Shown here one piece after another: positions 1-12,566 of a stretch of 33,591 nt of DNA (positions are counted from its first letter, which is position 1; the number at the start of each line of letters is the position of its first letter). A program made the translations under genes and the position numbers. Under the pieces are notes generated by a model that saw only the letters and a program-made list of their open reading frames with translations, did not search any database and was not told the origin of the DNA. This DNA comes from a virus: positions 1-33,591 of IMG/VR virus record IMGVR_UViG_3300036900_000084; one strand, 5' to 3'.

Positions 1-127
1 CAACACAGATGGCAAATTAAAATCAAACATTTGCTCTGCTGCGGTTGTGAGCGCATCTTGATTGTCTAACGTAATGATTGGGCGCTTACCAAGCATCATT
101 AGTGCATTTGAGACTACTTGTACTTTA
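1..127. repeat. Left copy of 127-bp terminal overlap
   Basis: Bases 1-127 are identical to 33465-33591. The overlap lies inside the gp11-like gene, which reads through it without a break. This shows that the sequence closes on itself and that the unique genome is 33,464 bp. The length 127 is a common assembler k-mer, so the repeat is probably an assembly overlap on a circular or circularly permuted molecule and not a physical direct terminal repeat. Confidence 0.95.
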
Positions 128-138: not shown

Positions 139-151
139 TATCACCCCCTAC

Positions 152-174
152 AAAAAGGGAGGGCGAACCCTCCC
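152..174 (-). terminator. Rho-independent terminator with UUCG tetraloop
   Basis: On the minus strand, a perfect 7-bp stem GGGAGGG/CCCTCCC closes a TTCG loop and is followed at once by TTTTT. It sits 20 bases after the stop of the 296-residue structural protein and 13 bases before the gp11-like start. UUCG-capped GC stems with a U run are the classic strong intrinsic terminator. The place, after the capsid genes and before gp11, matches T7 T-phi. Confidence 0.9.
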
Positions 175-194
175 AATGCTGTCATGGTTTATTG

Positions 195-1085
195 TTATGG
201 AGCAACTGCAATAGTGTGATAGTTAACGGTAACTGTCATCGGGCTGTCACCGGTTGTGAACGCACCAGTAAGGTTTGACATAAACAACCCTTGGTTAACA
301 ACGAGCGCATTAGCCACCACCGCAATGGATGCTGCGAGCAATCTAAATGTGCTGTCTGCTGCGATGCCGTTCACGGCTGCGGCTGCAACTGAGGCAGTTG
401 CTAAAGTACCGGCACCGTTTACAGTATTGCTATATTGAAGAGCTGCGGCACCACCACCGGCATACTGTGTTGTACCAAAGTTAGCCTCAACTACAACACT
501 ATCAACAACCAACATTAAGTTAGCCCCAGGTGCTGCCACAATTTGCTTAGGGGCTGCAAACATGCCGTTCCATTCGGCGGCTGTCATAGTGACCGCAGCA
601 GATGCACCAACAGTTGGTGCAACGGTTAATGTTGTGCCACTAAATGCAAGACCTGCGCCAAGTGTTACTTCTGATACTTCGGTTGTGCCAGCAGTTGGAT
701 TACCAAGCAATGTGTGTGTTGCAATCTCTTGAATCTTTGCAAATGTCACCGCATTGTTTGTAATGTCAGCAGTTCCAACAGGAGCCGAGCCATTGAAGTT
801 GGCAATTGTAATAACGCCATCAGTATTGGTTACGGAGTTAAATACAACGGTGCCATCTTCGCTGCTTTCAACAATGATAATGTCGCCAGTTACTAAATCT
901 GGCGCCACGCCTTGGTTAGGTACGCCATCATTAAAATATCCTGATGCGCCAATTGCTACTTGCGTATCTGCACTAAAGTATGAGTAAACGCGAGGGGCGC
1001 CAATCACACTTAAGTCTTGCAGGGTTGTAATAGGTTCGTTAGCACTCACGCTAACACGACCCCAGTTTTGTATCGTCAAAGCCAT
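195..1085 (-). CDS. Virion structural protein, probable head decoration or fibre protein
   Basis: The protein has 296 residues, is rich in Ala, Thr, Val and Gly, poor in charged residues, and has no signal peptide. Residues about 105-155 contain the pattern NNAVTFAKIQEIATHTLLGN followed by a TLGAGLAFSGTTLTV-like strand segment. This pattern recurs in phage tail and head fibres that fold as interdigitated beta structure. It follows the capsid gene by 12 bases with a good ribosome binding site (AAGGAGAATTTAAA-ATG) and is the last gene before the terminator, so it should be made at high level with the capsid protein. A head decoration or head-fibre role is inferred from that position. It could instead be a tail-associated fibre. 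Confidence 0.65.
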   Translation of the reverse strand: MALTIQNWGRVSVSANEPITTLQDLSVIGAPRVYSYFSADTQVAIGASGYFNDGVPNQGVAPDLVTGDIIIVESSEDGTVVFNSVTNTDGVITIANFNGSAPVGTADITNNAVTFAKIQEIATHTLLGNPTAGTTEVSEVTLGAGLAFSGTTLTVAPTVGASAAVTMTAAEWNGMFAAPKQIVAAPGANLMLVVDSVVVEANFGTTQYAGGGAAALQYSNTVNGAGTLATASVAAAAVNGIAADSTFRLLAASIAVVANALVVNQGLFMSNLTGAFTTGDSPMTVTVNYHTIAVAP

Positions 1086-1097
1086 TTTAAATTCTCC

Positions 1098-1937
1098 TTA
1101 AGGGTTGACCGATTCGTCGGCATTTACTTGGAACACACCGCGATTGTCTACAACCACAGCCCCTGCATAGAACAATCCATTCACAAACCAAGTTGTCTCC
1201 CTTGGAAGATAGTTAACCTCGGTGCGCATGTCTTGCGCGATTGCAAACCCGGTGGACATTTTATGCCACGCAAACGTATGACGAATGTTGCCCACTAATG
1301 GCAAACCACCTTCGGTCATGTCCGGTATGATGCGAATGTTCATACCCATTAACTCTTTGTACTGCAAAGAGCCGTCCACTACCGCATCATTTGATGTGTA
1401 GAAGCGGGATATAACTTGGTCGGCTGCGAGTAATGCACGCAAGTTATTACCCGACATCGCATTAAAGCGCATTGGTAATGGTACTGCGTTTTGTTCGAAG
1501 AATTGCACAACTTCACGAAGCTTGGCGTATGAGTAGTTTGTGCCACCATCAACAATTGTTTGGCCAGGATTTGCAGCCAAAGCATTGATTACGATTTGGT
1601 CCGAACGTCTACCAATTGCCATTGCAACGAGGGCCGCTAGTTCGCGCTTGGTGTCAAAGTTGACGGTAAGGTCTTGGATTTCATCAACCCCGGTTCCCGC
1701 CGCATATTTTACAAGCGTTGCCGTTTGTGCGGAGAACCCTGGATCTTGAATTGCAATTGTATTTTGGAAGGCTACGGGATTGGCGATAACTTGGCCCACT
1801 TTACGAAACTGAGTGGTTGAACCAACAACATCGGTGCGCATCCTAACAGTATCACGAAGAATAAATCCTTGTGAACGATATTCTATTTTAACGAGTGCGT
1901 CGAACTCTGTCTGTTCGACATTTGATAAAGTACTCAT
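1098..1937 (-). CDS. Major capsid protein
   Basis: The 279-residue protein is recognised as an HK97-fold type phage capsid protein by overall pattern: an N-terminal helix rich in polar residues (MSTLSNVEQTEFDALVKIEY), a long central segment with FRKVGQVIANP, a spine-helix-like stretch around 110-125 (AMAIGRRSDQIVINAL) and a C-terminal strand segment ending VVVDNRGVFQVN. It lies directly downstream of the scaffold gene, as in T7 (gene 9 then 10). The start ATG at 1937 has a GGGGG ribosome binding site 7 bases upstream. A dedicated promoter and a 240-base leader precede it, which fits the need for the most abundant virion protein. No proteolytic maturation site is evident. Confidence 0.85.
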   Translation of the reverse strand: MSTLSNVEQTEFDALVKIEYRSQGFILRDTVRMRTDVVGSTTQFRKVGQVIANPVAFQNTIAIQDPGFSAQTATLVKYAAGTGVDEIQDLTVNFDTKRELAALVAMAIGRRSDQIVINALAANPGQTIVDGGTNYSYAKLREVVQFFEQNAVPLPMRFNAMSGNNLRALLAADQVISRFYTSNDAVVDGSLQYKELMGMNIRIIPDMTEGGLPLVGNIRHTFAWHKMSTGFAIAQDMRTEVNYLPRETTWFVNGLFYAGAVVVDNRGVFQVNADESVNP

Positions 1938-2176
1938 AACGAGACCCCCAAAAAATTAATCCATTAATCTTTCGGCTTTCTGGTTGTGGGTATCGGTATC
2001 CATCAGGTGTTGTGTGGTGTCCTTAGAAGCTCTTACGGTATCCTTCCGGGCGTAAGGTGTGATTTCTTGTCTGGGCACACAACTGTTCCGTCTCGGGCGA
2101 TATTTGTCACATGTTCCAAATAAGCGCGCGGCACCCTTGCACACGTAGCATCCATGCCTTGTGTGCAAGGGGTCCT
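1938..2176 (-). promoter_or_regulatory. Structured 5' leader of the capsid mRNA
   Basis: The 274 bases between scaffold stop and capsid start hold no convincing gene. An open frame of 70 codons (1956-2168) starts with TTG, has no ribosome binding site and encodes an unfamiliar sequence. The stretch is rich in inverted repeats: an 11-bp perfect stem at 2134-2171, CTTACG/CGTAAG at 2032-2056, and paired ATTAAT boxes just before the capsid ribosome binding site. With the promoter at 2183-2211, transcription would start near 2176 and place the long hairpin at the very 5' end of the capsid mRNA. By analogy with T7 gene 10 and other phage leaders this could protect the message from decay or aid initiation; that is inference. 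Confidence 0.5.
2134..2171 (-). other. 11-bp inverted repeat at 5' end of capsid transcript
   Basis: CCCTTGCACAC (2134-2144) and GTGTGCAAGGG (2161-2171) are perfectly complementary with a 16-base loop. There is no T run on either side, so it does not look like an intrinsic terminator. It is placed within a few bases of the predicted capsid transcript start. Confidence 0.8.
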
Positions 2177-2182
2177 AATTGG

Positions 2183-2211
2183 AGTATAGACGCAAGTTTT
2201 ATAACTGCAAA
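2183..2211 (-). promoter_or_regulatory. Predicted sigma70-type promoter for the capsid gene
   Basis: On the minus strand a -35 box TTTGCA (2211-2206) and a -10 box TATACT (2188-2183) are separated by 17 bases. It abuts the scaffold stop codon and reads into the capsid leader. The -10 matches consensus at five of six bases and the -35 at four. Confidence 0.5.
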
Positions 2212-2991
2212 TTATTCGCCGGTGGCACGCTTTAGCCGGGCATTAATGTCGGCACGATAGCCCGGGTCGTTGAGATACTTCTGTGAGTTTGTGGGCACCA
2301 ACATTTCGGCCTCAATGGATGCAACCGTCTCAACTTTAAACGCAGTTGGGGCAACTGTCACCCCCGGTGGTTGGCCGGTTTGGTTGGCGTAGGAGTGGAA
2401 CTGGCGCAGCTCATCTAATAGGTTGATAAACTCTGCCGTGTGGCCTAGCTTATTGATTGTGTTAATCGCCCCCTCTGACAATGTGTTGGACGCCCAGGTT
2501 GCAACCGTTTCAATCTTTTGGCGCCCACCTGTCCCAAGCTTCTCAATCTCTTTACCGTAATCTATTTTGCTTGAGTCCACAATCTTTGAGTAGGTATCAA
2601 ATATGCCATCAACGATATCTTGGCCTAAGTTTTTTTGCTTGGCAAAGCTAATTAGCCCCACCACATGCTCGTTGGATGGGTCAATCTTATCTTGAAACTT
2701 TGTAAGGTCGTAGCTCTCTGGCGCCCGCATGCCAAGCTTGGAGGCTAGGTCTTTGTAGGCCTTGGCTTGGTCGGCAAGCGTTGCGTACTTTGAATCGAAA
2801 TAATCAGGGCGTGTGCCGCTACCCTTAACCCCATCCATGAAAAACCAATCGTCAGTTTGTTGGGGCGGTGGTGTAGTTGGGGGTGGGGCGCTCTTAACCA
2901 AATGTGGGAACAGCCCGTCAGAAGGGGCTTGGGTTGTGGGTGTTGTTGGTGGCGGTGCTTGTGTCACTGGCGCTGTTGTTTCTTGACTCAT
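2212..2991 (-). CDS. Capsid assembly scaffold protein (T7 gp9-like)
   Basis: The protein has 259 residues. The first 50 are rich in Pro, Thr and Gln and look disordered; next comes a YFDSKYATLADQAKAYKDLA segment and SKLGMRAPESYDL, a motif widely seen in phage scaffolds; the rest is mostly helical. It lies between the portal-side genes and the capsid gene, the usual scaffold place. The start at 2991 is preferred over the ATG at 3003 because GGAG lies six bases upstream of it. The gene overlaps the end of the Bbp19-like gene by about 74 bases. The scaffold drives procapsid assembly and leaves before or during DNA packaging. Confidence 0.75.
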   Translation of the reverse strand: MSQETTAPVTQAPPPTTPTTQAPSDGLFPHLVKSAPPPTTPPPQQTDDWFFMDGVKGSGTRPDYFDSKYATLADQAKAYKDLASKLGMRAPESYDLTKFQDKIDPSNEHVVGLISFAKQKNLGQDIVDGIFDTYSKIVDSSKIDYGKEIEKLGTGGRQKIETVATWASNTLSEGAINTINKLGHTAEFINLLDELRQFHSYANQTGQPPGVTVAPTAFKVETVASIEAEMLVPTNSQKYLNDPGYRADINARLKRATGE

Positions 2992-3298
2992 TCTTGACTC
3001 CATTCATGTACTCAATGTGTTGCTGCCCCAGGTTGTGCATGCCCCTGATGGCCTCCCTAAAACCCTCCCACCACAACGCCAAATCCCTGGCATTGATGGC
3101 CTGAGGGTCAAATACTGCTTTCATTAAATATCTATCGCGCCACGCCTCAAAGAGCTTTCGCCCACGTTCATCCACGTGGAACAATTCATAGCATAAGCGC
3201 GACACCTCCTGGTCTGGCCCATGACGCTCGGGGTGTTGTACTTTGTGTGTGTCGTAGATGTTAGCCAGGCTGAGGTAGGGGTTGTCCGCCGGATCCAT
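2918..3298 (-). CDS. Bbp19-like phage structural protein
   Basis: The 126-residue protein has an N-terminal helical part with ELFHVDERGRKLFEAWRDRY and then LALWWEGFREAIRGM. This ordering (a residue-rich LFxxxxGRxxxxxL helix, then WWEGxRxxxR) fits the Bbp19 family of short phage proteins found between portal and scaffold genes in Bordetella phage BPP-1-type genomes; the biochemical role of that family is not known to me. The last 24 residues are Asn/Ser/Thr-rich and are encoded in the overlap with the scaffold N-terminus, which is itself low complexity. It also overlaps the portal gene end by 38 bases, so translation is probably coupled. Confidence 0.6.
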   Translation of the reverse strand: MDPADNPYLSLANIYDTHKVQHPERHGPDQEVSRLCYELFHVDERGRKLFEAWRDRYLMKAVFDPQAINARDLALWWEGFREAIRGMHNLGQQHIEYMNGVKNESRNNSASDTSTATNNTHNPSPF

Positions 3299-4847
3299 TT
3301 TGTAAATTCTCCATCATTGCTTCTTCATTTTCCTGCGCCTTCATGCTCTCGTTAGCCAAGAACTCTTGCATTTGGTCGGATGTATTGATAACTGCCAAGT
3401 CCACCCCCATTTTCTCGGCCATCCATGCGGGAGCCTTGACGGGGTTGATGTAGGTAAGGGCTGCCTCTGGACCCATCATGCCTTGCATCAATTGGAACCA
3501 CTGCGTAAAGTTTGCGATGTCTTGCTGGCCTTGCGACACAGTGAGGGGCGATTTAAAGCGTATCTTTACTTCCTTGCCATTAACCAGAATCTTTTTAATC
3601 AAGCCCTTGCGTGCCAAAATACCAATCACATTCTCAAAGAAGCGCGGCATAAACTCTTGCTGCAAACGCGTAAAGCCTGGCCCAATTTCTTCGGCTAGGT
3701 TGCGCTGGCGAATCGCTAGTTCAGTTGCAGTTTTGTTGGGGCCTTCGATGGGTCCCAGGGGGTCTGCGTACATGAGTTTATTAATTTGCATGCGTAAATC
3801 ATTGGAGGTAAGCTGCATGAAATTAGGATTAGAAGTGTCAGGAAACGGTTGCAAAGGCCACTGCCCGTTAATAGATGGAGCAATTGGTATAACGGTGTTG
3901 GGTTCCAGGCGAAATGTCCAAGGATTAAAAACACCATCGCTAAAGGCCATAATGGGTTTACTGACGTTAAAGTTAGCACTAGCCAACTCAAGACGAGCAA
4001 GTTCGTTGAGAGATAAAATACTAGGTAGTGCATCTATCACCGGCCCCCTGCCCATTTGCTCGTTGTTAATGCGAGTCCAGCGGAATGTAACCATTGGGTT
4101 TATGTCCATAGGCTTTTCTAACAGCAGTTGGTTTTCCCACATGACAACGTACACATACCTGGTCTTAATGTCTTTGATGATTGGGTTGTCTGGCCCCAAA
4201 TCAATACACCCATCAAACAGAATTTTCACAGCCGCATTTGGGTCTTGCTTGTATAGCTCTTGCATCATGGGGGTGAGCTTAATGTCTGGCCACCACATGA
4301 GAATGTCGGCAATCTTTACCTCGTCCCACCAACGCCAGGTAGACTCCAATAGCCCCGAATATGATACCTCGGGAGCTAAGCGGGCGAGCGGCACAGAGTA
4401 GAAGCGAAGGGGATCGTCATCTGGCCCTTCGTGTATCAATAAACAGGCGGTGCCAACACCCAGGTCGTAATAACATTCGTTGATTGCCAGGTCGAAGTTC
4501 GAGCGGTGAATGTAACTAAAGATTGTGCGCGTAAGGATTTGTAACTCACGATTAACGCGCTCGCGCTCTTCTTCTGGCACATCATCGCCAGCTTCCAATA
4601 ACGCCCAATCCTGCTGTGGGGGTGTGAGGGCTGAGTGTATCTTTGACACAAAGCTTTTAAGGGCAGCAACTGCCGTCGTGTCAAACACTTTGGCATTTTT
4701 TTGTGCGCCCTGATACTGACTCGTCCAATAATAAAGGTTACGGTTGGGGACTGTGTAATGGTAGCAAGCTTCCAATAATGCAATCCACAAATCAGACGTT
4801 GAGCGTGCGAACTTAAACCGTCGCAAGTAATAGTCTTCTCTTTGCAT
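3261..4847 (-). CDS. Portal (head-tail connector) protein, T7 gp8-like
   Basis: At 528 residues the protein is close to T7 gp8 (536). It shows family features: an N-terminal segment with LWIALLEACYHYTVPNRNLY, a DTTAVAALKSFVSKIHSALTP stretch typical of podovirus connectors, the central WTRINNEQMGRGPVIDALPS motif (R/GxGP, the best conserved block) at about 260-280, and the C-terminal TATE-like block KTATELAIRQRNLAEEIGP around 370-390, followed by a Gln/Gly/Pro tail. The dodecameric portal is the DNA gate at one capsid vertex, docks the terminase and later the gp11-like adaptor. It begins three bases after the stop of the 98-residue gene. Confidence 0.93.
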   Translation of the reverse strand: MQREDYYLRRFKFARSTSDLWIALLEACYHYTVPNRNLYYWTSQYQGAQKNAKVFDTTAVAALKSFVSKIHSALTPPQQDWALLEAGDDVPEEERERVNRELQILTRTIFSYIHRSNFDLAINECYYDLGVGTACLLIHEGPDDDPLRFYSVPLARLAPEVSYSGLLESTWRWWDEVKIADILMWWPDIKLTPMMQELYKQDPNAAVKILFDGCIDLGPDNPIIKDIKTRYVYVVMWENQLLLEKPMDINPMVTFRWTRINNEQMGRGPVIDALPSILSLNELARLELASANFNVSKPIMAFSDGVFNPWTFRLEPNTVIPIAPSINGQWPLQPFPDTSNPNFMQLTSNDLRMQINKLMYADPLGPIEGPNKTATELAIRQRNLAEEIGPGFTRLQQEFMPRFFENVIGILARKGLIKKILVNGKEVKIRFKSPLTVSQGQQDIANFTQWFQLMQGMMGPEAALTYINPVKAPAWMAEKMGVDLAVINTSDQMQEFLANESMKAQENEEAMMENLQNGSGGQPLPQPG

Positions 4848-4850
4848 TTG

Positions 4851-5147
4851 TTATCCCAATGTGGCAGTGGATGTGCGTTGGGTTGGCTCTGACTCGCCAA
4901 AGATTCCACCCCTAATGCGTGAACGATTGGCGCGTGCAGCGCCCACATTTACCTTGCGTTGGGTGCGGGCAATCTCTGCGTTAAGACGGTCGGATTCCTT
5001 ACGGATTGTTGCCTCTTGCTGCTGTTGGTGCGCTCGTTGTTCGTTGGCGGCACGTTCACCGGCGCGCCTAGCTTTGCGTTGTTCGTTGATACCTAAAAGT
5101 GCGGCACCCCCGCTGATGACGGCTGGTATTGCTGCTGCGGCTCCCAT
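4851..5147 (-). CDS. Small Ala/Gln/Arg-rich protein upstream of portal
   Basis: The product has 98 residues: a hydrophobic, Ala-rich N-terminus (GAAAAIPAVISGGAALLGI, residues 2-20) followed by a charged helix rich in Glu, Arg and Gln (about 22-68) that could form a coiled coil, and a basic C-terminus. The start at 5147 has GGGAG nine bases upstream and lies inside the end of the preceding gene. T7 has a protein of similar size (gp7.3) at the same place before its portal, but I see no sequence match that would establish homology. A small virion or tail-assembly protein is the likeliest role. A membrane role through the N-terminus is an alternative. Confidence 0.6.
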   Translation of the reverse strand: MGAAAAIPAVISGGAALLGINEQRKARRAGERAANEQRAHQQQQEATIRKESDRLNAEIARTQRKVNVGAARANRSRIRGGIFGESEPTQRTSTATLG

Positions 5148-5590
5148 ATTTTAATCTCCCGTATTCCATCCATGAATAGAGTGTCCGGGTGTGTGAGGGT
5201 CTGGTACAATCCTTGTGCCAATGTAGCCCCCATGTTAATCCCGGCCAGATATTGTACAATTGTAGCGCAAGTTTGAAAAATTGGTTTGATGAGCTTATTA
5301 TTGTGCGTGGGATAAGTGACAACCTCTATGACCATATACCTATCCCACTCGTCAGTCAAAGGCTTGGTGCGAAAGGTTGTGCGACATCCTCCCAGGCATG
5401 GATCATGCACCACCAAAAACTCCTCAATCACTTCACACAGCGATACGTGTGTGTAGCCGGGCAACCATTTGTCCCACCAACTATCTGTGTAGCCAAATAC
5501 AAACAAGAAGCGTCTTTGGCGTTTAGATTTTAAAAAGCACCCAGATAGTGCCGACTTGCCTTTGGTCGATTTCATCCATTGTCCAAACAC
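5093..5590 (-). CDS. Conserved-looking phage protein of unknown function
   Basis: The 165-residue product starts with GTG at 5590, preceded by AAAGGA. After a basic N-terminus (MKSTKGKSALSGCFLKSKRQ) comes a compact domain with the blocks FVFGYTDSWWDKWLPGYTHV, TFRTKPLTDEWDRYMVIEVV and QTCATIVQYLAGINMGAT. I know similar hypothetical proteins, with a Trp-rich start, a His and a later Cys in a helix, from the packaging or portal region of other podoviruses. The Cys-His pattern is reminiscent of a papain-like fold, but no catalytic set can be assigned. It overlaps the 98-residue gene by 55 bases and the small upstream open frame by 68 bases. Confidence 0.65.
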   Translation of the reverse strand: MFGQWMKSTKGKSALSGCFLKSKRQRRFLFVFGYTDSWWDKWLPGYTHVSLCEVIEEFLVVHDPCLGGCRTTFRTKPLTDEWDRYMVIEVVTYPTHNNKLIKPIFQTCATIVQYLAGINMGATLAQGLYQTLTHPDTLFMDGIREIKIWEPQQQYQPSSAGVPHF

Positions 5591-5660
5591 ACTTAATTTC
5601 CTTTCGTGGGGGTGGGATTACACGCTCTAATAGCTTGGCTATTATGGCTTTGTGTCTCAT
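5523..5660 (-). CDS. Small open frame (45 aa) coupled to terminase small subunit
   Basis: ATG at 5660 overlaps the TGA of the small terminase gene in an ATGA arrangement, which favours translational coupling. The predicted peptide begins MRHKAIIAKLLERVIPPPRK and ends IDQRQVGTIWVLFKI, a protein-like composition with an amphipathic helix and then a strand. The 3' 68 bases overlap the following gene in another frame. I do not recognise it. It fills what would otherwise be a 66-base gap in a tightly packed operon, which supports it being real. Confidence 0.45.
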   Translation of the reverse strand: MRHKAIIAKLLERVIPPPRKEIKCVWTMDEIDQRQVGTIWVLFKI

Positions 5661-6187
5661 GACTTAATACCTAATGTAGTTTTGATAAGCTCGAGGTCGT
5701 CTTCCATCTTGGTGTTTTGAAGTACGCGCACCCCCGCCTCAACAAGCCCAACCATGTAGTTGATTTCGCTACCGGTGAGTGTGCCACAGCCGACCGCCGT
5801 TTCAATCTTTTTAAGTTTGTCAATTGGGGTGACGGCTTCGTCAAAGCCCGGTATTTGGATGCGACGATGTTCGGTGTAGTTGAAACGATTACGCATAACC
5901 ATAGACCATGCAGTTGCACTAAAATGTTCTTGCCCAATACCTTTCTTGCCCCTGTCTTCCCACCATGCAAGCGCCTTCATCCGGGCAACCGCATAGGCGT
6001 CTGCAAACTCTGGGTATCTGTCCAACCAATTGTAGAATGTTTTTTCACCAATGCTGTTTTCCGCGCAAAACTTCGCCCAACTATCGCCGTTAGCAAAAAT
6101 TTTAATTAATGAGTCCGGGTGCTTGTCTTTGTCGTATTTTAAATTGTAACGATTGCCCGGCTCTCGATAGTCTTTAATCTTTGCCAC
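5657..6187 (-). CDS. Terminase small subunit-like DNA-binding protein
   Basis: The product has 176 residues from a GTG at 6187 that is preceded by AAGGAGG; an ATG further upstream (6283) lies before the predicted transcript start and is rejected. Residues about 24-60 fit a helix-turn-helix of the type IFANGDSWAKFCAENSIGEK then TFYNWLDRYPEFADAYAVAR, which resembles the IA..G.s...ia...gis..tvy.WlkrhpeFa..ya.Ar pattern of phage small terminase subunits. Then follow WWEDRG and a NRFNYTEHRRIQI segment, also typical. It recognises concatemer DNA and recruits the large subunit. It is the first gene of the long late operon, far from the large subunit, which ends the same operon. Confidence 0.8.
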   Translation of the reverse strand: MAKIKDYREPGNRYNLKYDKDKHPDSLIKIFANGDSWAKFCAENSIGEKTFYNWLDRYPEFADAYAVARMKALAWWEDRGKKGIGQEHFSATAWSMVMRNRFNYTEHRRIQIPGFDEAVTPIDKLKKIETAVGCGTLTGSEINYMVGLVEAGVRVLQNTKMEDDLELIKTTLGIKS

Positions 6188-6209
6188 AAAACCTCCTTTG
6201 TCAGTCTGT

Positions 6210-6225
6210 AAAGTTTTATAACTTT
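6210..6225. promoter_or_regulatory. Inverted repeat near late transcript start (possible operator)
   Basis: AAAGTT and AACTTT flank TTAT, giving a perfect 6-bp inverted repeat just downstream of the predicted late start (about 6227). A protein bound here would block the minus-strand late promoter. A small 5' hairpin in the late mRNA is the alternative. Confidence 0.35.
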
Positions 6226-6233
6226 CATTGTAG

Positions 6234-6262
6234 ACTATAAAAAGCGTTTGACCCTCGGTCAG
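6234..6262 (-). promoter_or_regulatory. Predicted late promoter, left arm of symmetric divergent promoter
   Basis: On the minus strand the -35 box CTGACC (6262-6257) and the -10 box TATAGT (6239-6234) are 17 bases apart, giving a start near 6227, 40 bases before the GTG of the small terminase gene. The element interlocks with the plus-strand promoter at 6248-6276: each -35 lies in the spacer of the other. Confidence 0.7.
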
Positions 6263-6276
6263 AGCTTGGGTACAAT
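6248..6276 (+). promoter_or_regulatory. Predicted early promoter, right arm of symmetric divergent promoter
   Basis: TTGACC (6248-6253) and TACAAT (6271-6276) with a 17-base spacer are each one mismatch from sigma70 consensus or nearly so. The start would be near 6283, 25 bases before the first early gene at 6308. It is the best-scoring promoter by eye in the genome. The two arms mirror each other about base 6255 through TGACC-CTC-GGTCA. Confidence 0.8.
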
Positions 6277-6307
6277 GATTCATTTTACATCAGCAAAGGA
6301 AGCAGAT

Positions 6308-6550
6308 ATGAAGATCACCCAACTAATAGAAGCGTTAGAAAAAATCAAAAGTGAAGTGGGCGATTGTGGGGTGGCGATCGAGGTTGAAGAGCTAAACAGA
6401 TACCTACCCCTAATTGCCATAATGGGCAAAGACTTAACAAAAGATGCCGATAAACCAGGCTGTATAATTTTTACTGGCATACACACGGAACGTGCTGTTT
6501 ATACTGTGCGCACCCGGTCAAGTAAAAAAAGCGTCGAAATGGGCACCTAA
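6308..6550 (+). CDS. First early gene, unknown 80-aa protein
   Basis: The start at 6308 has AAAGGA seven bases upstream; an earlier ATG lies before the predicted transcript start. The product begins MKITQLIEALEKIKSEVGD and looks like a small alpha/beta protein with a hydrophobic core (IEVEELNRYLPLIAIMG) and a basic C-terminus. I do not recognise a family. The N-terminal pattern of a helix followed by G-D-x-x-V resembles short phage proteins that begin TVGELIEALEKLPPD..V, but this is only a resemblance. Being first behind the strongest promoter, it is a candidate host-takeover or early regulatory protein. Confidence 0.65.
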   Translation: MKITQLIEALEKIKSEVGDCGVAIEVEELNRYLPLIAIMGKDLTKDADKPGCIIFTGIHTERAVYTVRTRSSKKSVEMGT

Positions 6551-6552
6551 TC

Positions 6553-6762
6553 GTGAAGTTACACGCTGTGGAGTTTACGGTCGATGAACTAAGCACTCTA
6601 CAAATAGCTGTGGTGGTTGCTGCTGCTGAGTTTCTAAAGACGCTCACCAGTAGCAGTTTGCCAATAAACAAAAGTGATAGGGACAGGTATGAGCGCATGA
6701 CGGCTATCCAGAAAAAGATATCGTTAATATTTGGGGAAGCAATAGCAGATGACGAGGTTTAA
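6553..6762 (+). CDS. Unknown 69-aa early protein
   Basis: The frame starts with GTG at 6553, two bases after the stop of the previous gene. The ribosome binding site is weak, so translation is probably coupled. The product begins MKLHAVEFTVDELSTLQIAV and is mostly helical (FTVDELSTLQIAVVVAAAEF, then a polar loop and a second helix with RYERMTAIQKKISLIFGEAI). The helix-loop-helix layout is common in small phage proteins; no function is assigned. Confidence 0.55.
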   Translation: MKLHAVEFTVDELSTLQIAVVVAAAEFLKTLTSSSLPINKSDRDRYERMTAIQKKISLIFGEAIADDEV

Positions 6763-6907
6763 ACTTAAGGGCCAACAATTGCGCAACAAACACATACGTG
6801 AATTGTGGGCGAAATGCTTAGGCGACATAACTTTTAGCGTAAGGTCGAACCCTAACATTAAAAGTCGTCAACTTAATTTATACGTTGTGGACGTTGGGAA
6901 CGGTTAG
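6749..6907 (+). CDS. Unknown 52-aa basic early protein
   Basis: This short frame overlaps the previous gene by 14 bases and has GGGGAAG about nine bases before its ATG. The peptide begins MTRFKLKGQQLRNKHIRELW and continues AKCLGDITFSVRSN; it is basic with a probable N-terminal helix. The overlap and ribosome binding site support translation. No family is recognised. A hairpin follows seven bases after the stop. Confidence 0.45.
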   Translation: MTRFKLKGQQLRNKHIRELWAKCLGDITFSVRSNPNIKSRQLNLYVVDVGNG

Positions 6908-6913
6908 AATCTC

Positions 6914-6941
6914 ACTTCCGCTAATACCTATTATCGGAAGT
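6914..6941. other. Interrupted inverted repeat after early gene cluster
   Basis: ACTTCCG (6914-6920) pairs with CGGAAGT (6935-6941); inside it TAAT pairs with ATTA around an ACCT loop, with one mismatch. There is no T run after it. A TATAAT box begins at its last base (6941-6946), but no -35 is visible, so it may be an operator or a processing site as well as a weak terminator. Confidence 0.45.
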
Positions 6942-6968
6942 ATAATTCATGCTTTGTCAATAAACGCT

Positions 6969-7003
6969 GAATTTAACAGAGAATTTAGCGAATTTGAGAA
7001 TTT
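6969..7003. repeat. Cluster of four GAATTT direct repeats
   Basis: GAATTT occurs at 6969, 6981, 6990 and 6998 in a very AT-rich stretch of the 152-base gap between two early genes. The spacings (12, 9 and 8) shorten towards the next gene. A protein-binding cluster controlling the 7060 gene is possible; simple AT-rich composition could also explain it. Confidence 0.35.
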
Positions 7004-7059
7004 GTACAAAAATTAAGTTAGAATGATTAAAGTGACCTATGGGTCAGGAGGTGATAATA

Positions 7060-7380
7060 ATGAGCAAACCCGAGTATATCCATCTGCGCCGCATCGACAA
7101 AGAGCAAGCCGCAGTTATGCGCAACTTATGTTTAAAGTGGACAGATAAATTTAATCAAATGGTAGATGAAGACTTGGAGCTAATTAAGGAAGCTGACGCC
7201 ATGCCTGTAATGGTTGTGATGACCACCTGGCTAAAGATTATAGTGTCGGCCCATTTTTCTCAAATTCGCCCAGAAATTCTAAAGTCTAACCGAGCCGCCG
7301 CCAAAGAATCATTGCTGCAAATGGTGGTTGCTGTATGTGATGAATATTTTGCAGAAGGAGATCAACATGAGAACCATTGA
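7060..7380 (+). CDS. Unknown 106-aa helical protein
   Basis: The start at 7060 is set by a near-perfect AGGAGGTGAT eight bases upstream; an in-frame codon at 7039 lies before it. The product begins MSKPEYIHLRRIDKEQAAVM and appears all-helical, with a hydrophobic middle (AMPVMVVMTTWLKIIVSAHF) that is amphipathic more than membrane-spanning, and an acidic C-terminus. No family is recognised. It overlaps the next gene by 14 bases. Confidence 0.65.
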   Translation: MSKPEYIHLRRIDKEQAAVMRNLCLKWTDKFNQMVDEDLELIKEADAMPVMVVMTTWLKIIVSAHFSQIRPEILKSNRAAAKESLLQMVVAVCDEYFAEGDQHENH

Positions 7381-7858
7381 GTATGTAACCAAAGACAAAG
7401 CCCATTGGGGCGATGGCCCTTGGCAATCGGAACCCGACAAACGCCAATGGGTGGACAAAACCACCGGCTACCCGTGCCTTATACGACGTGGTGGCCTTGG
7501 TGCGTGGTGTGGCTATGTGGGCGTACCAGAAGGCCACCCACTATTTGAAAAAGCGCACTACGACGACTACGATGCCGTGGGCGTACATGGGGGTGTTACT
7601 TTTACGGACCATTGCCTAGCAGACCACGCCCCCGAAACTGGCATTTGCCATATTGTCGAAGAGGGCGAAGACGATAACGTGTGGTGGGTAGGTTTTGATT
7701 GCAACCACGGCGATGATATTGCCCCCGAGAGCGCGTATCTATACAAGGAAATGAATTTGCCATCCGACCGTTGGGGTGGCGCATCGTATAAAACAATTGA
7801 GTATGTAACTAACGAAACCCTTGGCTTAGCACAGCAACTCAAAGCGTTGGCCGGATAG
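7367..7858 (+). CDS. Conserved phage protein of unknown function (163 aa)
   Basis: ATG at 7367 follows GAAGGAG by six bases. The protein has blocks known from hypothetical proteins of many unrelated phages: a KTTGYPCLIRRGGLGAWCGY segment, VGVPEGHPLFEK, VHGGVTFTDHC and VGFDCNHGDD, then YVTNETLGLAQQLKAL at the end. The conserved Cys, His and Asp residues (GYPC, GHPLF, HGG, FDCxHxxD) suggest a compact, perhaps metal-binding, fold. The phrase TIEYVT occurs near both ends (about residues 3-8 and 145-150), which may be coincidence or a short duplication. Function unknown; the neighbours are other early accessory genes. Confidence 0.75.
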   Translation: MRTIEYVTKDKAHWGDGPWQSEPDKRQWVDKTTGYPCLIRRGGLGAWCGYVGVPEGHPLFEKAHYDDYDAVGVHGGVTFTDHCLADHAPETGICHIVEEGEDDNVWWVGFDCNHGDDIAPESAYLYKEMNLPSDRWGGASYKTIEYVTNETLGLAQQLKALAG

Positions 7859-7886
7859 ATTTTTTAACTACAAAGGAGTGTTTATT

Positions 7887-8111
7887 ATGAGATTTGTTAA
7901 GTTTGGTGAGGATATGCTAAATATTGGATTGGTAAGGAAGATTGGGATTGAAGACCCTAAACACCACGTACACAATGCTTTAGACATTAGCATCCCCTAT
8001 CGTTTCAGCGTCTTTTTAAAGACGAGTGAGCACACATACACAGAGTTTTACACCACAATTGAAGAAGCCCAGGCGCGAATGGATGCACTCGTGGCCCTCG
8101 CCAATTCCTAA
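7887..8111 (+). CDS. Unknown 74-aa protein
   Basis: The ATG at 7887 has AAAGGAG eight bases upstream; the in-frame GTG at 7878 would overlap that site. The product begins MRFVKFGEDMLNIGLVRKIG and reads as alternating strands and one helix near the end (TIEEAQARMDALVALAN). Such small proteins, with FVKFGxxxLNxxxV at the start and a Y/F-rich middle, resemble short phage proteins that carry a strand-rich sheet. No function assigned. It is followed by a terminator-like hairpin. Confidence 0.6.
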   Translation: MRFVKFGEDMLNIGLVRKIGIEDPKHHVHNALDISIPYRFSVFLKTSEHTYTEFYTTIEEAQARMDALVALANS

Positions 8112-8118
8112 CCACCGG

Positions 8119-8145
8119 GGCCGCAGCAATGCGGCCTTCTCATTT
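8119..8145 (+). terminator. Intrinsic terminator-like hairpin
   Basis: GGCCGCA (8119-8125) and TGCGGCC (8130-8136) form a 7-bp GC stem with a GCAA tetraloop, followed by the T-rich TTCTCATTT. It lies between the 74-aa gene and the SPFH gene on the same strand. The interrupted T tract suggests partial termination. Confidence 0.65.
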
Positions 8146-8161
8146 CAACCGGGAGTAACAC

Positions 8162-9082
8162 ATGATTTGGATATTAAGTTTATTAACTATTGTGCTAGTA
8201 ATTGCATTGGCCGCAACATTTTTGGAGGAAAAATCAAACGAACTACGAGTAATTGTGCTTGCGATATATGTAGCCCTTTGTTTGCTTGTGACCTTCTTTT
8301 GTTGCTTCCAACGTATACAACCCGGCGAAGTTGGGGTTATAGTTAACCTTATAGGCTCACACAAGGGTGTGGAGGACAAAGAATTAAATGTGGGATATCA
8401 CTTTATTAAGCCTTGGTGTGATGTTTACCGGTTTCCAATTTATGAACAAAATCATCAATGGACCGGCCCCGACGGGTTCAATTTCCAAACATCTGAGGGA
8501 CTGTCCGTGCACGCTGATATCGGGATTACTTTTAATCTGCAACCTGATCACATTCACGATTTATTCTATAAGTATCGACGCGGTATGGATGAAATTACTC
8601 ATTTATTTATTCGCAATAATATCCGTGACGCTATCAACAAGGCCGCATCTAAAATGACAATCGAGGAGCTTTACGGCAGTAGCAAAGAAAAGTTCTTTGA
8701 TATCATCCAAGGCCAGCTTCGGGAAGAGTTAAAACCCCTGGGCTTCAACATCAACCACCTTTTTATAATTGGGCAATTTCAAGTGCCCGACAATGTAAAA
8801 GCTGCCCTAAATGCCAAGATAGAAGCTACACAACGCGCCCAACAGAGGGAAAACGAATTGCGGGAGGCAGAGGCCCAAGCCCGCAAGGAAGTGGCTATCG
8901 TCGGCGGCGTCGCACAATCCAAACTTATACAGGCCCAAGCGGATGCCCAGGCAAATAAGTTGGTTGCCCAATCATTAACTCGTGAGATGTTACAGTGGGA
9001 AGCATTACGCAAGTGGGACGGGAAGTTACCACAGGTTGTGGGCAAGGATATCCCATTTATTATACAGATGAAAAATGACTGA
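8162..9082 (+). CDS. SPFH/band-7 (prohibitin-like) membrane protein
   Basis: The 306-residue protein starts at an ATG with GGGAG upstream. Residues 2-21 and about 28-50 are hydrophobic and should span the membrane. The SPFH domain follows from about 52 to 220, with the typical opening IQPGEVGVIVNLIGSHKGV, a GYHFIKPWCDVYRFPIYEQ segment and LSVHADIGITFNLQPDHIHD. A coiled coil rich in Ala, Glu, Gln and Arg (about 220-275) and the C-terminal block LQWEALRKWDGKLPQVVG are also family traits. Host homologues (HflK, HflC, prohibitin, stomatin) form ring cages around membrane proteases such as FtsH. A phage copy could shield phage proteins from FtsH or alter the membrane, but that is inference. It overlaps the next gene by 8 bases. 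Confidence 0.9.
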   Translation: MIWILSLLTIVLVIALAATFLEEKSNELRVIVLAIYVALCLLVTFFCCFQRIQPGEVGVIVNLIGSHKGVEDKELNVGYHFIKPWCDVYRFPIYEQNHQWTGPDGFNFQTSEGLSVHADIGITFNLQPDHIHDLFYKYRRGMDEITHLFIRNNIRDAINKAASKMTIEELYGSSKEKFFDIIQGQLREELKPLGFNINHLFIIGQFQVPDNVKAALNAKIEATQRAQQRENELREAEAQARKEVAIVGGVAQSKLIQAQADAQANKLVAQSLTREMLQWEALRKWDGKLPQVVGKDIPFIIQMKND

Positions 9083-9521
9083 GATAGTTAAAATATGCAA
9101 ATTACACGGTGAGCTTCCCAGGGAACTCACCGTTAATAATTCCAAAACTAAAAAGGGAGTTAAGTACACGTGGCTTAAATGTAGGTTGTGTCAACGCGAT
9201 AAAGATAGAGACTATTGGCATCGCAACCGTGACAAGAAAATTCAACAAAAACGTGAATATAACGAGCGTCAGGGCGAGCGCTTGAGGGTTAAGCGCCGGG
9301 AATACGAAGCCGCACAAAGAGCCACATTGTCCAATAGATATGTTGCAAACAAGATGGTTGAGGGTACGACCATAAAGCCAAGCCAAATGCCCATAAAATT
9401 GATAGAATTTAAACGAGTGATTATGCAACTAAAGCGGAGGATGAAAGAAAAGAATGTCGATAAAAAACATAACACAACTAAGGGAACATGCGATCGAGAC
9501 ATTGATGCGATTGGAGGATAA
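9075..9521 (+). CDS. Basic protein with zinc-binding Cys/His cluster
   Basis: The 148-residue product overlaps the SPFH gene (ATGACTGA), so it is translationally coupled. The N-terminus holds CKLHGEL (Cys8, His11) and KCRLCQRDKDRDYWHRNR (Cys36, Cys39), a C-x2-H-x24-C-x2-C set resembling the zinc-binding part of phage proteins related to recombination endonuclease VII or HNH-type nucleases. A long, strongly basic helix (about 44-85, many Arg, Lys, Gln and Glu) follows. No downstream catalytic His-Asn or Asp-His motif is apparent. A nucleic-acid-binding role is likely. The end overlaps the next gene by 68 bases in another frame. Confidence 0.65.
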   Translation: MTEIVKICKLHGELPRELTVNNSKTKKGVKYTWLKCRLCQRDKDRDYWHRNRDKKIQQKREYNERQGERLRVKRREYEAAQRATLSNRYVANKMVEGTTIKPSQMPIKLIEFKRVIMQLKRRMKEKNVDKKHNTTKGTCDRDIDAIGG

Positions 9522-9702
9522 CGACATCGACGTACAGGAGGCTGGGGTCACGGCCAAACTATACGAAAGTGTCATGAGTTCCTTAAAAACTCAAATTGAA
9601 TATAACAAAATGTTGGGCAATCCGTCTGTAATTCCCTTCTTAGAAGGTGAGCCAATTAGAACGGTAAATGCTAAAAAACTACTAGAGCAAAAACACGAAT
9701 GA
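9454..9702 (+). CDS. Small conserved-looking phage protein (82 aa)
   Basis: The protein begins MSIKNITQLREHAIETLMRL. It follows a pattern seen in other phages: two helices (LREHAIETLMRLEDNDI, then VQEAGVTAKLYESVMSSLKT), an EYNKMLG turn, and a conserved-looking IPFLEG near residue 60. Its function is unknown to me. GGAGG lies 13 bases before the ATG, rather far, so coupling to the overlapping upstream gene may help. Its last bases overlap the next gene as ATGA. Confidence 0.65.
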   Translation: MSIKNITQLREHAIETLMRLEDNDIDVQEAGVTAKLYESVMSSLKTQIEYNKMLGNPSVIPFLEGEPIRTVNAKKLLEQKHE

Positions 9703-9896
9703 AATCATATACATGTACAATGTGCCAAGGCTCGTACACGTCTGACAGGGACAGCGCGGACACTGAAAAAGAGTTTGCCGAGCTTTTTGCACCAGACACA
9801 GAAAAGTGCCTGGTGTGCGAACCATGCTACATAAAGGCAATGGAATGGTATAGCCCACACGACACGTCGTGGACCAAATGGATAATCAAACATTAA
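9699..9896 (+). CDS. Small zinc-finger-like protein (65 aa)
   Basis: The frame starts in an ATGA overlap with the previous stop. The product begins MKSYTCTMCQGSYTSDRDSA and carries two CxxC pairs: Cys6 and Cys9, then CLVCEPC at 37-43. This should bind one zinc ion as a small treble-clef or ribbon. The middle is acidic (about 18-36) and the end is Trp-rich (EWYSPHDTSWTKWI). Phage early proteins of this kind often bind host proteins or DNA. No specific role is assigned. Confidence 0.6.
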   Translation: MKSYTCTMCQGSYTSDRDSADTEKEFAELFAPDTEKCLVCEPCYIKAMEWYSPHDTSWTKWIIKH

Positions 9897-10249
9897 TGAA
9901 AAAACGACACCACAAGTTATTTGGCCAAGCCATCGAAGTTAGGCGCGAGCGTGAGCGGCGCATTATGGATGTTCGACATTTTGCCAGACTTCAAGCGCAG
10001 CTACCACTCTATCGGGACATCATAACTAAACTAAACGAAGAATATAATTTTCAATGGTGGTTAGAATATCGCTGGGATACGCCGCAGCTGGGCATGACCC
10101 TGGGCGCTGCGAAGCGCTATAGTAATAACCAAAAATGGCAAGCATGTTATTTTTTTACAAACGAGCAAACTGAAGAAACTTTGCGACATGCCATGGAAAC
10201 ATTAAGGGTGGCGTTTGAGCGCTCAGAAACAAAGTACAGTCTTGTTTAA
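9896..10249 (+). CDS. Unknown 117-aa protein
   Basis: The ATG at 9896 shares its A with the preceding TAA (TAATG), a reinitiation arrangement; in-frame codons at 9869 and 9878 fall inside the previous gene and lack a ribosome binding site. The product begins MKKRHHKLFGQAIEVRRERE, with a basic helix to about residue 40, then an aromatic-rich domain (NEEYNFQWWLEYRWDT, ACYFFTNEQTEETLRHAMET). No family is recognised. Confidence 0.6.
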   Translation: MKKRHHKLFGQAIEVRRERERRIMDVRHFARLQAQLPLYRDIITKLNEEYNFQWWLEYRWDTPQLGMTLGAAKRYSNNQKWQACYFFTNEQTEETLRHAMETLRVAFERSETKYSLV

Positions 10250-10273
10250 CAGCTGCAACAGCAAGGACGCTAT

Positions 10274-10801
10274 ATGCACAACACATTTTTTATTGGCGAC
10301 ACCCATTTTGGCCACGCCAACATTCTACTCTACGAACAAAAGCACCGCCCCTTTGAAAACCTAACCCAAATGCACGAAGCCCTAATCTCTCGGTGGAATA
10401 GCGTTGTGCGTCCATGCGACAAAGTATTCCACCTGGGTGACTTTTGTTTCGGTGCAAAAAACATCGCGTTCGCAGAGCTTCTAAATGGCAACAAGCATTT
10501 GATATTGGGCAATCACGACATCTACCCCACACAAGAATATCTTAAATATTTTAAAACCATACATGGCGCACTCTTTTGGCGTGGGTGTCTATTAACACAC
10601 ATACCGGTACACCCATTCAACTTAGACAACCGGGCTAAGTTTAACATACACGGCCACTTGCACAGCAAACGTATAGACAATCCATTGTGGATCAATGTAA
10701 GCTGCGAACAAAACCATCTGACGCCAATTAGCGCGGATGACATTGTTAAACTACAGGAGCAGTACCATGAGAAAGACCACCAAAGACACAACCAAGTTTA
10801 G
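10274..10801 (+). CDS. Calcineurin-like metallophosphoesterase
   Basis: The 175-residue protein carries the full motif set of the family: GDTHFGH (Asp9, His11, His14), HLGDFCFG (Asp56), GNHD (Asn80, His81), a later His109 in LLTHIP and GHLH (His128, His130). These residues hold two metal ions and the enzyme hydrolyses phosphomono- or diesters; the substrate cannot be told from sequence. The short length and the layout match the phage and bacterial subgroup that begins with F-x-x-D-T-H-F-G-H. AAGGA precedes the ATG. The C-terminus overlaps the next gene by 35 bases. Candidate substrates are cyclic nucleotides, nucleic acid ends or nucleotide second messengers used in phage defence. Confidence 0.92.
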   Translation: MHNTFFIGDTHFGHANILLYEQKHRPFENLTQMHEALISRWNSVVRPCDKVFHLGDFCFGAKNIAFAELLNGNKHLILGNHDIYPTQEYLKYFKTIHGALFWRGCLLTHIPVHPFNLDNRAKFNIHGHLHSKRIDNPLWINVSCEQNHLTPISADDIVKLQEQYHEKDHQRHNQV

Positions 10802-11216
10802 TAACGACGGATTAGCGGCAACATTCATGGGCTTAGAAGAAGCGCTCATGGCCGACACCGTGCAACTAAAAGCAATTGATGAAGACATCAAGACCCTAAC
10901 TACCAAACTTAAAAAACTATCCTTTGATGAAACCGGCACAACCATTTGCGCAAACGGCATAAAGGCTGGCAGGGTTGGTTATGACTACGACAAGAAAATT
11001 ATTTTGTTTGCACGCGCTGAGGGTGGCGTCGCACAGTTGTTAAACCAATCCCCGGCTGTTCGTAGAGAAGTCTATAACACATGTCTAGATGAGCTGTTGG
11101 TCCACTTGCGCCAAAGGTTTGAGGCTCGCGCCAAACCCGTTAACCCATCCAATGCGACCACACTTAATGTAAGCCAACCCCAAAAGAGTGCGGGTCTTTT
11201 CTCACGCCAAGCGTAA
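10767..11216 (+). CDS. Unknown 149-aa helical protein
   Basis: The ATG at 10767 has AGGAG seven bases upstream inside the end of the preceding gene, and is preferred over in-frame 10737. The product begins MRKTTKDTTKFSNDGLAATF. Residues about 25-55 form a probable coiled coil (QLKAIDEDIKTLTTKLKKLS), then a small sheet, a helix with VRREVYNTCLDELLVHLRQR, and a Pro/Asn/Ser-rich tail. No family is recognised. A perfect hairpin follows eight bases after its stop. Confidence 0.6.
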   Translation: MRKTTKDTTKFSNDGLAATFMGLEEALMADTVQLKAIDEDIKTLTTKLKKLSFDETGTTICANGIKAGRVGYDYDKKIILFARAEGGVAQLLNQSPAVRREVYNTCLDELLVHLRQRFEARAKPVNPSNATTLNVSQPQKSAGLFSRQA

Positions 11217-11224
11217 CACCCCCG

Positions 11225-11246
11225 TGGGCTGACACCCGTCAGCCCA
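11225..11246 (+). terminator. 9-bp perfect hairpin after early gene, probable terminator
   Basis: TGGGCTGAC (11225-11233), loop ACCC, GTCAGCCCA (11238-11246). It begins eight bases after a stop codon and is followed by TTAG, with no U tract, so it would be a weak or factor-aided terminator, or an mRNA 3'-end stabiliser. Confidence 0.6.
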
Positions 11247-11260
11247 TTAGTCATCCGTCT

Positions 11261-11266
11261 TATAAT
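11261..11266 (+). promoter_or_regulatory. Candidate -10 element for last early genes
   Basis: A perfect TATAAT lies 15 bases after the hairpin and about 69 bases before the next start codon (11335). No recognisable -35 box or TGn extension is present, so activity may need an activator. Its place right after a terminator makes a new transcript plausible. Confidence 0.4.
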
Positions 11267-11334
11267 GCACACCCGCCCTTATAGTTCTATATTTTCAAAT
11301 GTCGTTCTTTAATTTCACACAAGGAAGTCGCACT

Positions 11335-11697
11335 ATGACAGATGCAAGCGTACAAGCAATCAAAGTTAAACCCAACGCCCTACAAGTCGAACACCCACTG
11401 GCCAAACAATTGGGAGAGTTTTACAAACAATCAACCATCGAAAAAGACAAACTGGCAACCCTTGAAGCCGACAAAACCGAACTTAACAAAGCCCATGCGT
11501 TTTTGGTGGGACAAAACCCCAACACCCCCGCAGGGCCACGTTGCATGCAATTGTTAGAACGGCTAGACAATATGATTAAAAATCAAACCAACATAATCAC
11601 CAACTTAGAAAATATGCAAAACCAATGCAAAGCACAGATGGAGTTCGAAAACGCAAGTGCGATTGTGTCGCAGCTTGGCAAACGCTATGAGTCTTAA
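11335..11697 (+). CDS. Unknown 120-aa helical protein
   Basis: The start at 11335 has AAGGA nine bases upstream; an in-frame ATG at 11299 lacks one. The product begins MTDASVQAIKVKPNALQVEH and is largely helical: LAKQLGEFYKQSTIEKDKLA at about 22-41 and a second long helix with heptad-like spacing around CMQLLERLDNMIKNQTNIIT and LENMQNQCKAQMEFENA, so a coiled-coil dimer is likely. No family is recognised. It overlaps the next gene by 11 bases. Confidence 0.6.
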   Translation: MTDASVQAIKVKPNALQVEHPLAKQLGEFYKQSTIEKDKLATLEADKTELNKAHAFLVGQNPNTPAGPRCMQLLERLDNMIKNQTNIITNLENMQNQCKAQMEFENASAIVSQLGKRYES

Positions 11698-12055
11698 GGA
11701 TGCCCAGATTGCCATTGCCCTAATTGTGGCGCTCATGGCGGGGTTGTTCCTATGGGGGTGGGACTCAACACCCCCACCACCCCAAACTACGCCCATATGT
11801 CTCGACGTTCACATCCAGGAGGAACAAATGCCAGTAATGCTATCAGAGCTTCTAAACTTCGCCCAGCAGTGCTACGAAAGCTACGGCGACGTCCCGGTGT
11901 TTATGAAAGTTGATGACGATCCCGACAACATCTACATGGCCGAAGAGCAACGGGTGATGCGCGACACCAAAAACCACCAAACGGCATTTGTGTTGGCCGA
12001 CTACGAACTGCCAGAGGAAGGGATTGGGCCGAGACTTCGGTTGATCAAGGGATGA
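11687..12055 (+). CDS. Membrane-anchored acidic protein with internal start
   Basis: From the ATG at 11687, inside the end of the preceding gene, the product is 122 residues. Residues about 6-25 (AQIAIALIVALMAGLFLWGW) form one membrane segment with a charged residue just before it, followed by a Pro-rich linker (STPPPPQTT) and a soluble acidic domain with SYGDVPVFMKVDDDPDN, FVLADYELPEEG at the end. An in-frame ATG at 11828 has a perfect AGGAGG five bases upstream, so a 75-residue soluble form may also be made, or may be the main product. The soluble part resembles short phage proteins with a LSELLxxLxxxxxxYGDxPVxM pattern. Role unknown. Confidence 0.6.
   Translation: MSLKDAQIAIALIVALMAGLFLWGWDSTPPPPQTTPICLDVHIQEEQMPVMLSELLNFAQQCYESYGDVPVFMKVDDDPDNIYMAEEQRVMRDTKNHQTAFVLADYELPEEGIGPRLRLIKG
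11817..11830 (+). promoter_or_regulatory. Strong internal ribosome binding site and ATG
   Basis: AGGAGG (11817-11822), five bases, then ATG (11828-11830), in frame with the membrane-anchored protein. This is one of the best ribosome binding sites in the genome and lies between the linker and the soluble domain. Confidence 0.75.
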
Positions 12056-12140
12056 TAACGGTATATTTTATATATGCGTGGGGTGGTAGGAGTCATCACT
12101 TGGCCAAGGTCATTTAGCATGAACCACCACTCTGCGCGCC
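12056..12140. other. Short gap between convergent transcription units
   Basis: This 85-base stretch separates the end of the plus-strand early genes from the end of the minus-strand zinc-ribbon gene. It holds TTGGCCAA and a loose GGTGGT/ACCACC pairing, but no clear hairpin with a T run on either strand. A convincing terminator was not found. Confidence 0.5.
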
Positions 12141-12470
12141 TTACGCCCCTCGTTTAAACCTATCGTAGAGCTTTTCTAGCCGCTTTATCCTTGCCAGCAA
12201 CTCTGGGGCAGGTTCTAGCCCAGCGTTCGCCCTAAGGTCTTCTGCGGTGCATTTGAGGGCATCTAGCGCGTAAGTTAACGCCCAATGTAACTCGACGTGT
12301 TCTATCTCAGTAAACTGCATAAAAAACCTTTTAGTTTTAAAAAACATTTTGCAATTATTGCATACCCAGTAAAAACGCGCCTTGTCTTTAAGCTCTGTCC
12401 AGTTTTTGTATTGCTTCACTTCGATATGCTCACCCCCACACCCCGGACACCTAATGTCTTCTACATTCAT
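12141..12470 (-). CDS. Zinc-ribbon protein (109 aa)
   Basis: Two CxxC pairs, CPGC near residue 8 and CNNC near residue 37, are separated by about 25 residues and fit a zinc ribbon (RCPGCGGEHIEVKQYKNW, then YWVCNNCKMFFKTKRF). A helical C-terminal half follows (ELHWALTYALDALKCTAEDL, ending ELLARIKRLEKLYDRFKRGA). It stands alone after the replication operon on the same strand. Zinc ribbons of this kind bind nucleic acid or RNA polymerase. A regulator of transcription is possible but not shown. Confidence 0.65.
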   Translation of the reverse strand: MNVEDIRCPGCGGEHIEVKQYKNWTELKDKARFYWVCNNCKMFFKTKRFFMQFTEIEHVELHWALTYALDALKCTAEDLRANAGLEPAPELLARIKRLEKLYDRFKRGA

Positions 12471-12553: not shown

Positions 12554-12566
12554 ACTGCCCCCTTTT

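Follow-up and report, generated by a model that had tools for sequence, protein, structure and literature searches.

Gene layout of the phage genome

We analyzed the virus record IMGVR_UViG_3300036900_000084 from IMG/VR over its full 33,591 bases (hereafter, the window). The window bears a 127-base terminal direct repeat (1-127 and 33465-33591) and therefore closes to a 33,464-base circle, an indication that the genome is closed and complete. On the minus strand lies a structural block of T7-like morphology, headed by the gene for the small terminase subunit, TerS (5657-6187, minus strand; PHROG 309/1482). It includes the portal (3261-4847) and major capsid (1098-1937) genes, followed by tail tube A and B and then fibre genes, which span the record ends, and it closes with TerL (16875-18206, minus strand). 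TerS and TerL, first and last in the block, are thus separated by more than 20 kb around the circle.

On the plus strand, a block of small genes occupies 6308-12055 and includes a Band 7 (SPFH) protein and a phosphoesterase-like protein. Its first gene (6308-6550, plus strand) encodes 80 amino acids and has no assigned function, and no lysis or polymerase families were seen among the plus-block genes. The region from 12.1 to 16.9 kb contains a candidate O-like initiator that starts near 14 kb on the minus strand, as well as Erf and an SSB-like gene that start near 15.36 kb on the plus strand. No RNA polymerase was recognised in the large ORFs scanned, in agreement with an earlier note on this DNA, which had assumed that the phage has none of its own.

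The earlier note described the minus-strand genes as a late operon of 22.8 kb. The length holds if the circle is closed (6187 to 16875), but the block is interrupted by a strong intrinsic terminator on the minus strand, GGGAGGG-TTCG-CCCTCCC-TTTTT at 174-157, between the gene at 195-1085 and the tail tube gene. The terminator lies 18 bases 5' of the tail tube gene start (near 139) and leaves no space for a promoter, so expression downstream needs either read-through or a promoter inside an upstream gene. In position, it resembles a leaky terminator after capsid genes.

The mirrored pair of promoter sequences at 6234-6276

TerS and the plus block diverge from a 120-bp gap, and the promoter pair at 6234-6276 sits within it. 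Both start codons, GTG at 6187 for TerS and ATG at 6308 for the first plus-block gene, have good ribosome sites (Shine-Dalgarno matches of 8 and 6 bases, respectively) and fall outside the promoter boxes. The presumed early arm (6248-6276, plus strand) consists of a -35 box TTGACC (6248-6253), a 17-bp spacer and a -10 box TACAAT (6271-6276). The late arm (6234-6262, minus strand) consists of a -35 box CTGACC (6262-6257), again a 17-bp spacer, and a -10 box TATAGT (6239-6234). Judged as sigma70-type promoters with 16-18 bp spacing in each direction, the plus arm matches consensus at 10/12 positions and the minus arm at 9/12, and transcription is predicted to start near 6283 and near 6227, about 56 bp apart. 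The two arms are interleaved and mirrored about base 6255. On the symmetry axis lies the dyad TGACC-ctc-GGTCA (TGACCctcGGTCA, 6249-6261), which supplies both -35 cores. The boxes, the 17-base spacers, the reflection and the dyad had all been described in the earlier note, and every coordinate proved exact; the AAAGTT-ttat-AACTTT inverted repeat that it placed at 6210-6225 was likewise present, in the TerS leader just 3' of the minus start. We also considered the TGACC dyad as an intrinsic terminator and dropped this idea, as the stem is only 5 bp and the T-run is five bases off.

Our main reading is that 6234-6276 would act as a functional, mutually exclusive pair of sigma70-type promoters, to which we assign a probability of about 0.55. 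The minus arm faces the head, tail and packaging block, which runs from TerS to TerL. Since each -35 box lies inside the spacer of the other arm, one polymerase should exclude another, as had been proposed, and host RNA polymerase would occupy one orientation at a time. This exclusion may carry functional weight. If it is real, 43 bp of symmetric DNA would tie two opposed gene programmes together with no additional protein. Counting against this reading are the weak minus arm (9/12), an alternative minus -10 box nearby (TACAAT at 6232-6227), and the fact that the geometry is not kept in the relatives found.

Taken singly, promoter-like matches were near chance: positions 1-12000 held 25, compared with 18.6 ± 4.1 in shuffled DNA. 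The plus arm was one of the two best matches in this segment, whereas the minus arm was one of 23 and stood at chance level, so by itself it means little. The pair as a whole behaved differently from its parts. The window contained one mirrored 17/17 interleaved pair, whereas dinucleotide-shuffled versions averaged 0.02 (such a pair turned up in 3 of the 150).

The background score of the minus arm is what would be expected if only the plus arm were real and transcription of the late block began at a different promoter, such as one built on the alternative -10 box at 6232-6227 or one dependent on a phage activator. The late promoter of phi29 offers a precedent, as it likewise has a poor -35 box and requires protein p4 (PMC3100819). 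Under this explanation, it would be a coincidence that the four boxes mirror one another exactly, and we consider the explanation rather unlikely.

The dyad itself could instead be mainly an operator, bound by a dimeric regulator that represses both arms, with the likeness to a minus -35 box arising as a by-product of the palindrome. TGACC half-sites do recur in the window as TGACC-tatg-GGTCA at 7033-7046, just 5' of the ribosome site that serves gene 7060 (7060-7380), which we considered as a possible regulator and whose predicted structure had a pLDDT of 53. Two or more such copies also arose in 12 of 100 shuffles, and the copy at 7033-7046 is possibly due to chance. The arms of the dyad are only 5 bp long, and two -35 boxes in this arrangement would yield TGAC..GTCA anyway. 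Among distant relatives of the phage, strong dyads do occur at the TerS node, and one relative (L021) has TGACCN(2-6)GGTCA in the same TerS-side gap, away from any core promoter; the other relatives' gaps lack it. On balance, we regard a primarily operator role for the dyad as improbable.

Recurrence in IMG/VR and layout in distant relatives

We scanned IMG/VR for the pattern ANTNTA-N9-TGAC-N5-GTCA-N9-TANANT, to which the site in the window conforms, together with a single control pattern with the same letters and both spacers set to 19 instead of 17. The 17-bp form gave 97 matches and the 19-bp control 10, a roughly tenfold difference that became about fourfold after dereplication by clustering of flanking DNA (33 versus 8 families). 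Most of the 17-bp families (29/33) lay outside ORFs of at least 140 amino acids and four lay inside; the control showed the opposite distribution, with 2/8 outside and 6/8 inside (Fisher p = 0.001). This location criterion is crude, since the TerS frame is open 5' of its likely start and the window's own site would therefore count as inside an ORF. Positions left free in the pattern also favored consensus in the 17-bp form, both at T1 of the -35 box (50/66 versus 6/16 in the control, p = 0.005) and at T3 of the -10 box (38/66 versus 2/16, p = 0.001), with the two arms of each family counted separately and thus not fully independent. Position A5 of the -10 box showed no enrichment over the 19-bp control.

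Measured against one control spacing, the architecture thus combines a preference for 17-bp spacers, intergenic placement and consensus bases at free positions. It looks like a recurrent phage element, to judge from these pattern matches, present in dozens of unrelated phages. Its recurrence at the correct spacing makes a real bidirectional promoter likely at 6234-6276, and the matches name other phages where exclusion can be tested. The neighboring genes elsewhere are varied (L121 has holin and terminase genes, L101 an anti-restriction protein, L145 an exonuclease and L159 RtcB), so a general early/late role is not implied. In L121, which belongs to an unrelated family of three phages, the mirror architecture (8447-8489) lies between a holin gene on the minus strand and a terminase gene on the plus strand.

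No close relatives of the phage were found by DNA-level search or by protein searches with TerS or the first plus-block gene. Searches with the portal and major capsid proteins, together with TerS alignment, yielded distant relatives only, whose TerS proteins are 30-40% identical. In L002, L014, L019/L020, L021, L023/L024 and L034, TerS is divergent from either the gene that precedes it or the closest promoter that faces away. The interleaved mirror pair was absent from L002, L014, L019, L021, L023 and L034. Where a divergent gap exists, its promoters are back to back or separate, with -35 to -35 distances of 8 bp in L034 (back to back), 13 bp in L002 and more than 200 bp in L021. The conservation of the symmetry, for which the earlier note had proposed a search, was therefore not seen in the relatives found, none of which is close.

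These layouts bear on a simpler account, in which two ordinary divergent promoters happen to overlap because their gap measures just 120 bp, each is used as required, no meaningful exclusion takes place, and timing is set elsewhere, by a late activator or by genome replication. The relatives manage with back-to-back or well-separated promoters, so interleaving is not needed, and little basal competition was found at published bidirectional promoters (PMC12825309). Set against this are the rarity of exact mirror pairs in shuffled DNA and the excess of the 17-bp mirrored form over the 19-bp control in phage DNA (about tenfold, fourfold after dereplication). We see the chance overlap as a minority explanation, with perhaps one chance in four of being correct.

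Several of the relatives show a bias toward the early-facing side. In L002, L014 and L023, the promoter that points away from TerS comes near to consensus (11/12 in each) and is clearly closer to it than its partner; in L034 the two arms have equal scores, and in L021 both are good. In both L021 and L034, two ATGTACAT palindromes spaced exactly 24 bp apart straddle the away-from-TerS promoter (L021:4246-4277; L034:1742-1773), and neither locus has a further copy. The two are likely an operator pair. Other dyads at the away-pointing promoter are TGATGTA-gta-TACATCA in L002 and TATGTGT-N9-ACACATA in L023. Given such dyads at the away-pointing promoters, the group probably shares regulation of the early-facing promoter by a protein that binds a dyad; it does not share the exact symmetry. 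We also considered the TGACC dyad as the group's conserved operator and dropped it: TGACCN(2-6)GGTCA occurs once in about 475 kb of relatives, in the TerS-side gap of L021 apart from any core promoter, and is missing from the other gaps.

The same gap of L021 contains a further feature. Between the divergent early-facing promoter and TerS, a pattern scan found a sequence at 4380-4425 that has the positions conserved in type III hammerhead ribozymes (GCGG CTGATGA GTC-GTAA-GAC GAAA TATC-GAAA-GATATA CCGC). Rfam did not report this sequence, and its predicted minimum-energy fold differs.

Possible control of direction and comparison with known switches

The earlier note suggested that a factor binding the TGACC dyad could flip the direction of transcription. 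This does not fit the geometry. The dyad is centered on the promoters' own axis, and a symmetric dimer bound there would hit both arms alike; it cannot choose a direction, and an off-axis element is needed. We found a candidate for an asymmetric operator in the palindrome ATGATTCAT at 6275-6283 (11 bp with flanks: AATGATTCATT), which lies over the end of the plus arm's -10 box and its predicted start. The motif ATGAWTCAT occurs three times in the window, against 0.40 expected: at 6275-6283, at 15357-15365, and within an ORF. The second site belongs to the palindrome GTATGAATCATAC (15355-15367), which covers the -10 box TATGAT of a predicted minus-strand promoter (15390-15361) for the gene at 15129-15320. 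A palindrome common to both nodes arose in 16 of 3000 shuffles.

The gene at 15129-15320 (minus strand) encodes a ribbon-helix-helix (RHH)-like protein of 63 amino acids that we consider a candidate regulator. Structure prediction gave two confident helices and did not resolve the strand. The best fold matches in the PDB were the RHH proteins Rv0298, CopG and Arc, all at E of at least 0.35, and Pfam returned CopG_antitoxin at E 0.16 and no match to RHH_1 (PF01402); none of the PDB or Pfam matches was significant. Searches of phages and genomes gave no sequence relative within the limits applied. The link between ATGAWTCAT and this protein is a lead found post hoc, with the RHH assignment drawn from weak matches.

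These elements can be placed in a possible sequence of events. The slightly stronger plus arm would fire first and express the small plus-strand genes, and the weaker minus arm would feed the morphogenesis block from TerS to TerL; this order and these roles are suggested by gene content and relative box strength. What sets the direction would lie away from the axis rather than in the central dyad. A phage repressor binding ATGAWTCAT over the plus -10 box and start would stop early transcription and thereby free the minus arm. That the RHH-like gene has this palindrome over its own promoter points weakly to 15129-15320 as the repressor, which would then be autoregulated. The repressor step is doubtful. 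A broader hypothesis would be that phages repeatedly use the -35-interleaved mirror promoter as a one-polymerase direction element, distinct from the -10-sharing class, and that in this phage it marks the boundary between early and late genes, its direction being set by an autoregulated RHH repressor that binds off the axis and governs a second node as well; we offer this as speculation with the odds well against it.

That 6234-6276 serves as an early-to-late switch, as had been claimed, is partly supported; that it is a single switch is not. Erf/SSB (about 15.36 kb, plus strand) and the O-like initiator (14.0-14.3 kb, minus strand) start from other intergenic nodes, so that with replication and recombination genes placed separately this locus would be one switch point and not the sole one. 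Nor is an early/late junction without a phage polymerase unusual: phi29 switches from early to late transcription at divergent promoters with the host polymerase, through p4 and p6 (PMC3100819). At its A2c/A2b-A3 region, as is presumed here, early and late genes lie on opposite strands with their promoters in one region (PMC3100819). The reliance of phi29 on host RNA polymerase also fits the layout of the window, where no polymerase gene was recognised in the large ORFs scanned. Regulator sites in phi29 overlap the early -35 boxes, and the late -35 box is weak (PMC3100819), features to which the present locus may be likened. In contrast to the present pair, no interleaved mirror geometry is described for the phi29 promoters, and their switching is the work of an activator/nucleoid complex.

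Bidirectional promoters of E. coli, described by Warman, Grainger and colleagues, resemble the pair in having pseudo-symmetric DNA and two exclusive orientations of RNA polymerase, and activating one side can repress the other (PMC12825309). At five that were tested, basal firing was too low for competition, which was seen only at raised activity (PMC12825309). In these promoters both directions use a common -10 element, and the starts are separated by 10, 18 or 23 bp (PMC12825309); at 6234-6276, by contrast, the -10 boxes neither coincide nor overlap, the -35 boxes interleave, and the predicted starts are about 56 bp apart. The Pc/Pr promoters of pLS20 are another case of overlapping divergent promoters of unequal strength, for which exclusion of RNA polymerase has been argued and which form a switch with RcoLS20 (PMC4207663). 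Theirs is a plasmid conjugation switch with DNA looping, and its promoters do not form a mirror-symmetric pair that separates early from late phage operons. Bidirectional promoters and divergent early/late switching are thus already known, and the new part is the -35-interleaved geometry. Bidirectionality would then be reached in two ways, through a shared -10 element, which has been described, or through interleaved -35 boxes, which the papers found do not treat as a class.

The window contains a second interleaved divergent pair, this one non-mirrored, at 14190-14232. Its promoter-like boxes are TTGACA-16-TAGGAT on the plus strand (14205) and GTGGCA-17-TACAAT on the minus strand (14218). At 14255-14292, 3' of its plus promoter, lies an 11-bp perfect inverted repeat, TGCGCTCATCC-16-GGATGAGCGCA, within a 307-bp gap that has no plus-strand gene; it is possibly a small RNA or an origin element.
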